Below the pieces are notes generated by a model, which was given only the letters and a program-made list of their open reading frames with translations, was not told where the DNA came from and made no database searches. The translations under genes and the position numbers were made by a program. A stretch of 64,000 nt of DNA, taken from Natronosalvus rutilus (GTDB lineage Archaea; Halobacteriota; Halobacteria; Halobacteriales; Natrialbaceae). Positions 12,011 through 55,195 of this stretch are shown here, one piece after another. The stretch covers positions 1,345,451 through 1,409,450 of the forward strand of contig NZ_CP100355.1 in NCBI RefSeq assembly GCF_024204665.1, written 5' to 3'. The number at the start of each line of letters is the position of its first letter. Positions within the stretch are counted from its first letter, which is position 1.

Positions 12011-13230
12011 TCCCCACCTAAAGTGGCTGCAGACTCGGAGTTACTTTGGTTCAAGTCGAGACGGATGTTCTCCGCCCCATTTACGTCAGCGTTGAATGCC
12101 GCATCACACGACTCACAGACGTACAAGCCGCGTTCAACACGCTGACTCTCATCTTCTGTACCGCACACGCAACACGTCTTACTTGTGTTCCGTTCTGAAA
12201 CTTCTACAACTTCGATACCCTCGACTTTCGCTTTGTACGTGAGAATCTTCGTGAAGCGGTCGAACGCCCACCCGTGTAAGTCAAGGTTGCCGTGCCGACC
12301 CCAGTTCTTCGAGTCGCCGTTTTCATCCTCTCGAACACCAGCGAGTTTTCCGATGTTGATTCTCCCCACGCCACGCTCGATACACTTCTCAACGACGTGT
12401 TTCGCTAAAGAGTGGAAGAAGTGAGCGCGGCGCTCGCTCCATTTGTGATGAAGTCTGGTGGCCTCAGAGCCACCTGAGTCGTCGTACTTGGCTATTTCCT
12501 TCGGGAAGTAGTATCCGTCTTGTTTCAAGCGGTTTCCGGGGTACAAGTCGGCTTGCTCAATACTGTAGGCGACCGCCGCGAAGTTGCAGATACCGAGGTC
12601 GATGCCAGCAGTCTCGTTGCCGGGAGCATCGGGTGTTTCGACTTCGTGTTTACACACGAGGTGAAGTTCCCATCGCCCCTTCAATTTGCTGTAGACGGCT
12701 CGAACCTGTTGTAGGTTCTCAACCGTAACCCCAGGACGAGTCTCATACTCGACGAGAATGTAGTCCCAGTCTCTCGGGTGGTCTTTGTGATTCGCACCTT
12801 TCGAGAGCCTGACGCGGTTGTGCTTGGTGTCGTGACGGATGCCCTTTTGCTTCCACGTCACCGTGCTACGAGGGTGTTCTTCGTGGACGCGGTTGCCGTC
12901 ATTGTCGTAGTAGTTTTTCTTGCGGTAGCCGGGCGGATTCGCACGAGAATCGTTCTTGCGTTTTCCGAACCACGAGTTGAAGGCTTCAGCGAGTTCTTCC
13001 AGAACGCGCTGGCTGGACTGACTGTGCAGTCCCTTGTAGTTGTCGTGACCTTTCAGCTCGTTTTTCAAGTCCGAGTCGTCGGGGATCTCGCCCGTGTCAT
13101 CCCACACTTGGCGGGAGTGATAGTTCGCAACGTTCCATAGTTTCGATGTACTCCACGCGTGCAGGTCGAGCATCTGCTCCACTTGTGAGTGGTTGCGGAT
13201 TTTCGCCCGGCAAGTGCGGTGGATGTGCAT
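11914..13230 (-). CDS. tnpB: TnpB family RNA-guided nuclease, relocated-glutamate type
   Basis: A full-length 438-residue TnpB. The N-terminal helical region holds the family's LHSQSSQRVLEELAEAFNSWF. RuvC motifs follow: GIDLGICNFAAVAYS (first Asp), then RINIGKLAGVRED where most TnpB proteins have (I/V)xEDL, the zinc ribbon CCVCGTEDES...CESC, and the final NADVNGAENIR Asp. The usual catalytic Glu is replaced by Gly (IGKL). VSERNTSKTC, about 50 residues later, offers a glutamate in the position used by Fanzor and some TnpB lineages. The 3' end overlaps the candidate guide RNA. No tnpA is adjacent. Confidence 0.93.
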   Translation of the reverse strand: MHIHRTCRAKIRNHSQVEQMLDLHAWSTSKLWNVANYHSRQVWDDTGEIPDDSDLKNELKGHDNYKGLHSQSSQRVLEELAEAFNSWFGKRKNDSRANPPGYRKKNYYDNDGNRVHEEHPRSTVTWKQKGIRHDTKHNRVRLSKGANHKDHPRDWDYILVEYETRPGVTVENLQQVRAVYSKLKGRWELHLVCKHEVETPDAPGNETAGIDLGICNFAAVAYSIEQADLYPGNRLKQDGYYFPKEIAKYDDSGGSEATRLHHKWSERRAHFFHSLAKHVVEKCIERGVGRINIGKLAGVREDENGDSKNWGRHGNLDLHGWAFDRFTKILTYKAKVEGIEVVEVSERNTSKTCCVCGTEDESQRVERGLYVCESCDAAFNADVNGAENIRLDLNQSNSESAATLGGDRSTGWLAQPGVYLHDLSHGFSPREQVVDCKP

Positions 13231-52603: not shown

Positions 52604-53833
52604 TTAGCGGATGACGTCGACGCCGTTATTGCGCTCGAGCTGGTCGCGCCCGCCGTCGCTCTGGGCACCGAAGCTCGAACTCGAACTCGAGCGACGCCCG
52701 CCTGATCCTCGCTCCTGTGTCTGCTGGGAGCGAACGTTCTGGCTCGCATCGAAGTCCGCTTCGGTCACGCCCTCCAGGCTGGCGCGGGACTTGTCGGCCT
52801 GTTTCTGGGTACTCGGGCCGAGCACCTGCGCACTCTGGACGCCGGTCATGATCGCCATGACCCGCACCTTGCCCTTGTAGCTCTCCTGGATCCGGGCGCC
52901 CCAGATCACGTTCGCCGAGGCCTCGAGGCGCTCGGTGATGTTGTCGGCGATTCCCTCGGCCTCCTTCAGCGTGAGGTCGGGGCCGCCAGTGATGTGGACC
53001 AGTCCGCCGGAGGCGCCGCGATAGTCGACGTCCAACAGCGGATGGTTCATCGCGTCGCGGACGACCTCCTCGGTCTTGTTCTTGTCCTGGGTCTCCCCCA
53101 CGAGCATCACCGCGACGCCGCCCTGGTTCATGATCGTGGACATGTCCGCGTAGTCCAGGTTGATCAGGCTCGGCTGGGTGATCGTCTCGGAGATGCCTTT
53201 GACGGTCTCGGCGATGATCTGGTCCATCACCGAGAACGCCTTGCCGATCGGCAGATTCGGGACGTAGTCGAGCAGCCGGTTGTTGTCCAGTACGATGATC
53301 GAGTCGGCCTGCTCGCGCAGCTTCTCGAGGCCTTCCTCGGCTTTGACCGTGCGGGCGCGTTCGACGTTGAACGGCGTCGAGACCATCCCGACGACGATGG
53401 CGCCCTGTTCTTTGGCGATCTTCGAGGCGACGGGAGCGGCACCGGTGCCGGTACCGCCACCCATGCCGGCCGTGACGAAGACGAGGTCCGCGTCCCCGAG
53501 GACCTCCTTGATCGTGCCCTGGGCCATCTCGGTGGCACGCTCGCCCATCGAGGGGTCGCCGCCGGCGCCCAGTCCGTTCGTGAGCGACTTGCCCACAAGG
53601 ATCTTGGTGTCGGCCTCGATCATCTTCAGGTGCTGCTTGTCGGTGTTGATCGCGATCGTCTCCGCGCCTTCGACACCGATGTTGTACAGCCGGTTGATCG
53701 TGTTGTTGCCGGCTCCACCGCATCCGATGATGACGATTCGGGGCTCCCCGAACTCGTCGTCGTCGAGGGAGCCGTCCATGTTCTTGGCCTCTTCTTCGGC
53801 ATTCTCGAGGGCGTCTTGCACGATGTCCTGCAT
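52604..53833 (-). CDS. ftsZ2: Cell division GTPase FtsZ2
   Basis: A 409-residue archaeal tubulin homologue, [19 protein letters not shown]. GTPase features are [39 protein letters not shown] and the T7 loop LINLDYADM. The C-terminal tail ends NNGVDVIR, the usual conserved tail of FtsZ2 for partners such as SepF. Haloarchaea have FtsZ1 and FtsZ2; the N-terminus MQDIV and immediate cdrS neighbour identify this as FtsZ2, which drives constriction after FtsZ1. The ATG lies two bases after the cdrS stop, so they are one operon. Confidence 0.95.
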
Positions 53834-53835
53834 CG

Positions 53836-54015
53836 TTACACCTTCGCCCAGCCGCGTTTACCCGGCTGTTCGTGGCGACCCTCGTACTGGTCGTTGATCA
53901 TTTCTCGCACGGCCGAACGGATAGCTTCGCTCCGGTTTGGAAACTCCCCCGTCTCGACCAGCTGTTCGACTTCTTCGATCTGCTGTTTCGGTATTCGCAG
54001 TGTCACACGCTCCAT
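53836..54015 (-). CDS. cdrS: Ribbon-helix-helix cell-division regulator CdrS
   Basis: A 59-residue RHH protein, [20 protein letters not shown], then [20 protein letters not shown] and a basic tail (PGKRGWAKV). The first strand (RVTLRIP) and helices form the RHH dimer. CdrS has been described in Halobacterium and Haloferax as a master regulator of division genes including ftsZ2. Its position directly before ftsZ2 is diagnostic. The stop is two bases before the ftsZ2 ATG. Confidence 0.95.
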
Positions 54016-54035
54016 TATTGTATTCCCCGTATTGG

Positions 54036-54208
54036 GTAAGACGGTGCGCGCCCCTGTCAGACGCGGCGTGTCTTACACGTCGAATCGCCCGCAGTCGGAC
54101 GATTTTCGGGTGATTCCCACCCGCTGTAAGACAACCGTCTTACGCGACTGTAGCCAACAGGCTGGTAGGTATTAAAACTATCGGCGTTGGTGACCGTCCG
54201 TGTCTTAC
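54036..54208. promoter_or_regulatory. cdrS-ftsZ2 control region with five GTAAGAC/GTCTTAC boxes
   Basis: Boxes lie at 54036-54042, 54070-54076, 54126-54132, 54137-54143 and 54202-54208. The middle pair is a perfect inverted repeat GTAAGAC-AACC-GTCTTAC. On the minus strand a likely TATA element (TTTTAATAC, about 54168-54176) places the transcription start on this inverted repeat. Another box lies 21-27 bp before the cdrS ATG. An RHH protein such as CdrL or CdrS is the expected binder. Confidence 0.7.
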
Positions 54209-54230
54209 GACGGAATCGTTTGTATGACAG

Positions 54231-54842
54231 TCACGACTGATTCGACTCGAGTACGTCCGCGGCGGGCGTTCGACGCCCACAGCTCGGACAGAACGCCCAG
54301 TCCGATCGCACCTCGTCCCCGCAGTCACAGAAGACGCGGTGGGTCGCCTTCTCCCCGCAGTTGGGGCAGAAGACGTGTTCGGACTCGAGTCCTGTCCCAC
54401 ACTGGCCACATGCGCTTGCGCCTCGAGCGGGACGGTCCTCCATCGAACGCGCCGGTTGGTCTCGAGTCGAGCCGTTCGAGGCGCTCGAGTGGTCGACCGC
54501 GTGCGTTTCCACAGCCGGAGTAGTGGATTCGGTCTCGCGTGCGCGCGTCGCCTCGACACCCTCGAGCGCGATGGAGACGTTGACGTCCTGGCCGCTCGAC
54601 GAATGACGAGCGGACAGCCGTCGTTCGAGCAGGGAGTCGATCCGTTCCTCGAGCAAGGCGTCGAGGCTGTCGTCCGGAGCGTCAGCACGAGCGTCGTCGG
54701 TCGGACGGGCGTCGACGCCGTCTGTCGGCTGCTCGTCCAGGTACGCTCGGAGTGCCTCGCGCATGACCTCGCTCTTCGAGGCGTCGAAGGCCTCGAGTTC
54801 GGCGACGAGGTCGTCATCTGCGCGGAACGTGATCTTTCCCAT
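54231..54842 (-). CDS. cdrL: CdrL-like protein: RHH domain plus C-terminal zinc ribbons
   Basis: A 203-residue protein. MGKITFRADDDLVAELEAFDASKSEVMREALRAYLDE is a complete ribbon-helix-helix domain. A variable linker (about 40-130) leads to a zinc ribbon (CGQCGTGLESEHVFCPNCGEK) and a second ribbon-like CDCGDEVRSDWAFCPSCGRR. CdrL, the long partner of CdrS, has been reported to act on the cdrS-ftsZ2 promoter. Its gene lies upstream, same strand, with the GTAAGAC boxes between. A TATA box (TTATAATATGG, minus, 54861-54871) about 24 bp before the ATG implies a leaderless mRNA. Confidence 0.9.
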   Translation of the reverse strand: MGKITFRADDDLVAELEAFDASKSEVMREALRAYLDEQPTDGVDARPTDDARADAPDDSLDALLEERIDSLLERRLSARHSSSGQDVNVSIALEGVEATRARETESTTPAVETHAVDHSSASNGSTRDQPARSMEDRPARGASACGQCGTGLESEHVFCPNCGEKATHRVFCDCGDEVRSDWAFCPSCGRRTPAADVLESNQS

Positions 54843-54871: not shown

Positions 54872-54966
54872 CTCATCCTATATGAAACTTCCCACGCGTC
54901 CGACGCGTGTCTCACACGGCGCGAATAATAACCCTTATACCGCCTTCGTCTGCTACGTATGAGTGA

Positions 54967-55040
54967 CCGCTCTTAGCTCAGCCTGGTAGAGCAGTCGACT
55001 GTAGATCGACTTGCCCCCCGTTCAAATCGGGGAGAGCGGA
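54967..55040 (+). tRNA. trnY: tRNA-Tyr (GTA)
   Basis: A complete 74-nt cloverleaf: acceptor CCGCTCT pairs with AGAGCGG, with discriminator A (55040). The D-arm reads GCTCAGCCTGGTAGAGC and the anticodon loop CTGTAGA in a GTCGA...TCGAC stem. The T-arm is CCCCGTTCAAATCGGGG. C1-G72 is the archaeal/eukaryotic identity pair for TyrRS. No intron is seen and CCA is not encoded. A TATA-like CCTTATACC lies about 30 bp upstream. Confidence 0.97.
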
Positions 55041-55195
55041 CTCGTTTTCTTCGCCGAGCGAATCACGTTCGACCGACAGCAGCGATTTCGATACTACGTC
55101 GTATCCACGGCGAGTCGTCGATCCCGAAAGTGCCTGCTCGAGTGCTCTCCCACGTGTCCAGATGCTACGCTTTTTAGATGGACGTTTACGGGCGA

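Follow-up and report, generated by a model that had tools for sequence, protein, structure and literature searches.

The cdrL-cdrS-ftsZ2 locus and its array of boxes

The locus studied here lies in a 64-kb window (i.e., the whole stretch of DNA analysed) and consists of cdrL and, downstream of it on the minus strand, the cdrS-ftsZ2 operon. The cdrS gene (53836..54015, minus strand) encodes a 59-aa RHH protein (Pfam RHH_1, 34.0 bits), and ftsZ2 (52604..53833, minus strand) is an ORF recognized as the top-scoring FtsZ in each of 14 genomes. Both genes have been reported to be cotranscribed (PMC7439475, PMC8406309). The product of cdrL (54231..54842, minus strand) combines an N-terminal RHH domain with a C-terminal double zinc ribbon; its Pfam match to DZR reached 32.1 bits, while those to RHH_1 (19.0, cut-off 20.5) and CdrL_M (22.5, cut-off 27) fell below their cut-offs. 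An AlphaFold2 model of the CdrL monomer had a mean pLDDT of 61 and did not form the RHH strand, and was left out of the argument.

The gap between cdrL and cdrS measures 215 bp (54016-54230). A first-pass annotation had reported five copies of GTAAGAC/GTCTTAC in it, and all five proved to be exact, with the order along transcription being box 1, TTTTAATA, box 2, 4 bases, box 3, box 4, box 5 and ATG. Box 1 (GTAAGAC, 54202..54208, minus strand) lies upstream of the TATA-like element TTTTAATA (54170..54177, minus strand), which was predicted from sequence and falls on conserved columns of the alignment. Box 2 (GTAAGAC, 54137..54143) and box 3 (GTCTTAC, 54126..54132), both given on the minus strand and with their centres 11 bp apart, are the left and right arms of a perfect inverted repeat with a 4-bp spacer, located approximately 25-30 bp downstream of TTTTAATA at the predicted transcription start. 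Box 4 (GTAAGAC, 54070..54076, minus strand) is in the predicted 5' leader, and box 5 (GTCTTAC, 54036..54042, minus strand) is found about 20 bp ahead of the cdrS ATG. The repeat at the predicted start, the copy upstream of the predicted TATA and the copy near the cdrS start were thus all as first described.

The rest of the window holds one further copy of the word (at 12176), with 4.3 expected in the window by shuffling. Five copies per 215 bp correspond to a Poisson P of ~5e-12, or ~4e-8 when corrected for 8192 possible words. The paired word GTAAGAC-N4-GTCTTAC is matched perfectly only once in the genome of 4.31 Mb; the sites ranking next have 2 mismatches. Directly 5' of the cdrS start codon, we also observed GGGGAATA (54021-54028), whose core GGGAA is conserved at ≥95% in 81 loci and perhaps serves in ribosome binding.

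Conservation of the array in haloarchaea

Conservation of the word upstream of cdrS in relatives had been named beforehand as the first test that could refute the operator proposal, and the word proved to be conserved. Of 391 haloarchaeal genomes, 374 contain the pair GTAAGAC-N3-6-GTCTTAC, 372 of them once and 2 of them twice, and 17 do not; it is represented in 83 of 86 genera. A reversed control pattern matched in 7 of the 391. In three of the 17 genomes, the assembly lacks a true cdrS (best matches with E 7e-6 or worse), and the other 14 do have cdrS with an array, in which the spacer is 2 bp (six genomes) or one arm is altered (eight genomes). In three genomes without cdrS in the assembly, the best remaining CdrS relative was a third small RHH protein (M[P/A]KISVE[I/V]P...). 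In the 52 genomes for which both positions were compared, a stretch of 65-111 bp separates the cdrL match from the pair downstream of it.

When 80 named haloarchaeal loci were considered together with the window, the word was present in 81 of 81 cdrS upstreams (387 exact copies) and the exact inverted repeat in 79, with both exceptions belonging to Haloquadratum. Among 111 representatives, drawn from a wider set of 128 upstreams, 490 exact copies were counted versus 4.8 in dinucleotide shuffles; five copies were present in 64 loci, four in 32, three in 12 and two in 3. The spacer of the repeat in these representatives is mostly 4 bp (81 loci), followed by 5 bp (17), 2 bp (6), 3 bp (5) and 6 bp (2). 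Both the orientation and the distance of box 1 vary by lineage.

Chance, or shared ancestry without function, would draw on the flanking sequence that is also common to close relatives. However, boxes 2 and 3 and most of boxes 4 and 5 show ≥95% identity where many adjoining columns show 0-60%, and one pair per genome is kept across 83 of 86 genera, so that we give this explanation practically no weight. The assignment of the array as a conserved operator of the cdrS-ftsZ2 promoter appears well supported by these sequence comparisons.

Another explanation places the function of the boxes in the RNA of the 5' leader, with boxes 2 and 3 (and 4 and 5) forming hairpins that control translation or processing. 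Boxes 2-5 do fall within the predicted leader, and the operon has been described as probably regulated post-transcriptionally (PMC8303175), but box 1 is upstream of the TATA, untranscribed and found in either orientation. Furthermore, seven of the eight representatives with an altered repeat lose base pairs without compensation (5 or 6 of 7 kept); the remaining one keeps 7 of 7 by means of a G-U pair, and two-sided changes occur in none. It is the word itself and not its pairing that is conserved, and the leader hairpin was rejected as highly improbable because box 1 is untranscribed and altered arms are not compensated.

Viral contigs gave 56 matches to the pair. One of these has at least three boxes in its vicinity and falls in low-complexity sequence; an array of haloviral origin was not seen among these contigs. 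One haloarchaeal chromosome record (CP132292.1) holds two cdrS loci with the array at both and a second cdrL that reads shorter, which is possibly an overlap of the ends of the record.

CdrL and the genomes that lack it

In Hbt. salinarum, CdrL ChIP-seq yielded a sole reproducible site, upstream of cdrS-ftsZ2 (PMC7439475), and the array sits in the region that corresponds to this site known from another species. The promoter is thus the same, with one ChIP peak there and a paired word that is nearly always unique here, and this uniqueness in nearly every genome fits a single CdrL site. The main text of that study uses the word 'motif' 0 times, and no description of boxes, copy number or conservation was found in it; the cdrL deletion is reported there to carry second-site mutations and was not analysed further (PMC7439475). 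Neither later CdrL papers nor a relevant paper on the word GTAAGAC/GTCTTAC were found in the open-licence PMC literature. Compared with the papers that could be searched, the operator appears to be new at this level of detail, while its RHH kind was already known.

The same study stated that all sequenced Halobacteria have CdrL (PMC7439475). Contrary to this statement, CdrL was not detected in all of them: a CdrL profile had no match in 15 of the 391 genomes. Three of these also have no cdrS in the assembly, and the remaining 12, from at least seven genera, all keep the repeat. A search with the RHH part of CdrL alone found none in those 12 genomes and recovered it in four of four controls.

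Boxes 1 and 4 were found in 76 and 85 of 100 CdrL-positive loci versus 2 and 1 of 11 CdrL-negative loci, respectively, while box 5 was found in 93 of 100 and 11 of 11. The 100 loci comprise all CdrL-positive representatives with an exact repeat (out of 108), and one CdrL-negative locus (G353) was excluded because its contig apparently ends just upstream. A tie between the loss of boxes 1 and 4 and the absence of CdrL is suggestive only, since loci of the same genus are not independent and the seven CdrL-positive loci of one family also have few boxes (box 1 in 4, box 4 in 2). In the two CdrL-less genomes of a single genus, 35 of 35 box positions are identical versus 72% elsewhere; the corresponding 0.72^35 (~1e-5) counts only if the loss of CdrL predates the split of this pair. 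Considering that 12 CdrL-less genomes keep the repeat and that the boxes of this pair are identical, CdrL is not the sole reason for the conservation, and CdrL as the sole reader was rejected.

The first-pass annotation had proposed the array as an operator for CdrL and CdrS. The operator itself is well supported by its conservation and the part of CdrL supported by the published ChIP, the latter qualified by the repeat kept in genomes without detectable CdrL, while the part of CdrS does not follow from its ChIP, as the promoter is not among the 18 CdrS sites. The main reader in most haloarchaea would probably be CdrL, with CdrS as a second reader.

CdrS and the promoters of the outgroups

The CdrS ChIP in Hfx. 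volcanii gave 18 sites, ftsZ1 and hisB included, with a symmetric motif; the cdrS promoter is not in Table 1 of that study, which concerns another species and a tagged plasmid copy (PMC8406309). In one Haloferax genome, perfect GTCAGAC-N4-GTCTGAC occurs exactly twice, upstream of hisB and of ftsZ1, from which we infer GTCNGAC as the probable CdrS half-site. The two sites share the N4 layout of the array, but their third base is C and not A, and the CdrS sites are mostly upstream of the promoter, where CdrS is proposed to activate (PMC8406309). Among 14 ftsZ1 loci, the best hit to the pair had 0 mismatches in one, 1 in four, 2 in four and 3-4 in five. A strict CdrS-type pair with a 3-6 bp spacer was found in 60 of 116 genomes (range of 0-10 copies), unlike the single GTAAGAC pair. 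CdrS-type pairs in dacZ promoters are weak (27 loci, best hits over the whole loci with 1-5 mismatches), so these promoters were not used as support.

The array boxes are GTAAGAC, unlike the CdrS half-site, with two isolated GTCNGAC boxes between them. GTCTGAC (54056..54062, minus strand) lies 14 bp downstream of box 4 and is found at the same place in most of the Natrialbales loci listed, while the place of GTCCGAC (54094..54100, minus strand) is not conserved. GTCNGAC is also enriched in haloarchaeal cdrS promoters in general (77 versus 12.1 in shuffled sequences).

Outside the Halobacteria, 40 upstreams of cdrS relatives were taken, 39 of them with a clear start, and 200 bp of each were examined. 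GTCAGAC/GTCTGAC is present in 38 of these 39 promoters (76 copies), and GTAAGAC/GTCTTAC in four. Of 69 pairs of GTCNGAC boxes, 67 are spaced by an exact multiple of 11 bp, as are 59 of 61 once similar loci are removed, and 52 of 70 boxes with a single mismatch are in phase with this lattice. Of the GTANGAC/GTCNTAC boxes of the outgroups, 12 of 14 are exactly 11 bp from a GTCNGAC box, and a GTC[A/T]TAC box is found exactly 11 bp from a GTCNGAC box in 12 loci, a placement on the GTCNGAC lattice which suggests that one reader probably accepts both forms. Half-sites of seven bases at a distance of 11 bp occur in both box families; in the haloarchaea only boxes 2 and 3 are mostly at this distance and the other boxes are not. 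Adjacent RHH dimers occupying the same face of the DNA would give such a lattice. No CdrL-like gene was found beside cdrS in 19 outgroup loci inspected, which makes CdrS the likely reader there. A search of 21 outgroup genomes with the CdrL of the window gave weak matches only, all in the zinc-ribbon part.

These observations bear on the alternative that CdrS is the main reader also in haloarchaea, the array being an autoregulatory site kept from a methanogen-like ancestor and CdrL a later, dispensable partner. The RHH boxes in the promoters of CdrL-less outgroups and the 12 outgroup GTANGAC/GTCNTAC boxes in register with GTCNGAC speak for it, as do the GTCNGAC enrichment in haloarchaeal cdrS promoters and the repeat kept in 12 CdrL-negative haloarchaea, with box 5 in all 11 loci examined. 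On the other hand, the 18 published CdrS sites do not include its own promoter (PMC8406309), the ftsZ1 and hisB sites are GTCAGAC and not GTAAGAC, and the CdrL ChIP does hit the cdrS promoter (PMC7439475). We consider this alternative unlikely overall. Most likely, the array would be an operator for RHH proteins with a CdrS-type array as its ancestor and CdrL as its present binder. A CdrL-CdrS heterodimer on an asymmetric GTA-N-GAC was also considered and is not supported, as the boxes persist in genomes without CdrL, and GTC[A/T]TAC boxes occur in outgroups without it.

Certain residues of the RHH strand read DNA bases in proteins of this kind. At these positions, all 27 CdrL proteins compared carry K3, T5 and R7, and CdrS has R3, T5 and R7. 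A third conserved protein could also read the boxes, e.g., a small RHH protein beginning MPKISVEIPEELL, which is present in the three genomes inspected, with weak CdrS relatives in most genomes of the cdrS search. Its strand residues are different, however (K3, S5, E7), it has no known link to the cdrS promoter, and the CdrL ChIP already supplies one binder, which leaves a third reader improbable.

Proposed mechanism of cdrS-ftsZ2 control

We propose, as a reading that we hold to be rather probable, that the array is a cdrS-ftsZ2 operator of RHH half-sites derived from a CdrS lattice, read mainly by CdrL and also by CdrS, and that its occupancy limits initiation. The present array may descend from an older one of CdrS type (GTCNGAC on an 11-bp lattice), through which CdrS would have controlled its own operon. 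The present half-sites would be of 7 bp, GTAAGAC or more loosely GTANGAC, for RHH dimers of the CdrS/CdrL type, and CdrS would probably also be able to use at least the core formed by the inverted repeat and box 5. Occupancy at the predicted start would most likely limit initiation and in this way steady the supply of CdrS and FtsZ2, while box 1, upstream of the TATA, could add a positive arm. As a general rule, sites at or downstream of a promoter usually repress and upstream sites activate (PMC8406309). Given this rule, and with the repeat at the predicted start and boxes 4 and 5 within the leader, we favour repression or homeostasis through boxes 2-5. The deletion of cdrS has been reported to lower ftsZ2 1.3- to 2.2-fold (PMC7439475), which speaks against simple autorepression by CdrS. 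This result and the spacer of 2-6 bp, which sets the haloarchaeal array off a strict lattice, were counted against this explanation.

Short promoter half-sites on which RHH dimers bind side by side, as proposed for the array, are known from the met boxes of MetJ and the heptads of omega, although these operators are bacterial and have other words and spacing. NikR, a tetramer that responds to nickel, has an additional metal-binding domain, for which there is no room in a CdrS of 59 aa. The best PDB sequence match of CdrS is a NikR, aligned residue 1 to residue 1. The NikR operator, GTATGA-N16-TCATAC, is likewise an inverted repeat for an RHH protein with a half-site resembling GTANGA, but its half-sites are much further apart than boxes 2 and 3 (PMC7055735, PMC4486848).

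FtsZ2 is required for haloarchaeal division, and an operator defined this precisely makes the control of its supply testable by edits of a few bases and not by deletion of cdrL. The 11-bp lattice in methanogen relatives, together with the one-base difference between sister sites, would also offer a clean case of divergence between regulator and operator.

The cdrL promoter as a possible return arm

The promoter of cdrL holds GTGAGAC-N4-GTCGGAC (54898..54915, minus strand), a CdrS-type pair and predicted CdrS site. In 100 cdrL upstreams, GTCNGAC was observed 94 times versus 15.0 in shuffled sequences, while GTAAGAC is not enriched (2 versus 3.2). At least one GTCNGAC is found within 260 bp in 61 of the 100, usually 48-65 bp ahead of cdrL. 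Between -75 and -40, 61 boxes were counted, and 29 of them are preceded by a second box at a distance of exactly 11 bp. These boxes directly precede a TATA-like stretch, and much of the Natrialbales is without them. An action of CdrS on cdrL is predicted on these sequence grounds. For Hfx. volcanii, we take HVO_0583 to be cdrL. The CdrS ChIP in that species did not list cdrL, and HVO_0583 is absent from the text of the study (PMC8406309).

Together with the array, these sites allow for a more far-reaching reading in which a one-base change of the operator rewired the control of division. In Halobacteria, the CdrS lattice would have become a CdrL array (GTANGAC), with CdrS acting on cdrL and CdrL on cdrS-ftsZ2, so that each sister RHH protein would control the other. 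K3 in CdrL and R3 in CdrS, both in the DNA-reading strand, would then tell A from C at the third base of the half-site. We regard this rewiring as possible and rather doubtful.

A tRNA-Tyr gene (54967-55041) lies directly upstream of cdrL and divergent from it, and a tRNA-like sequence is similarly placed upstream of cdrL in many Natrialbales loci.
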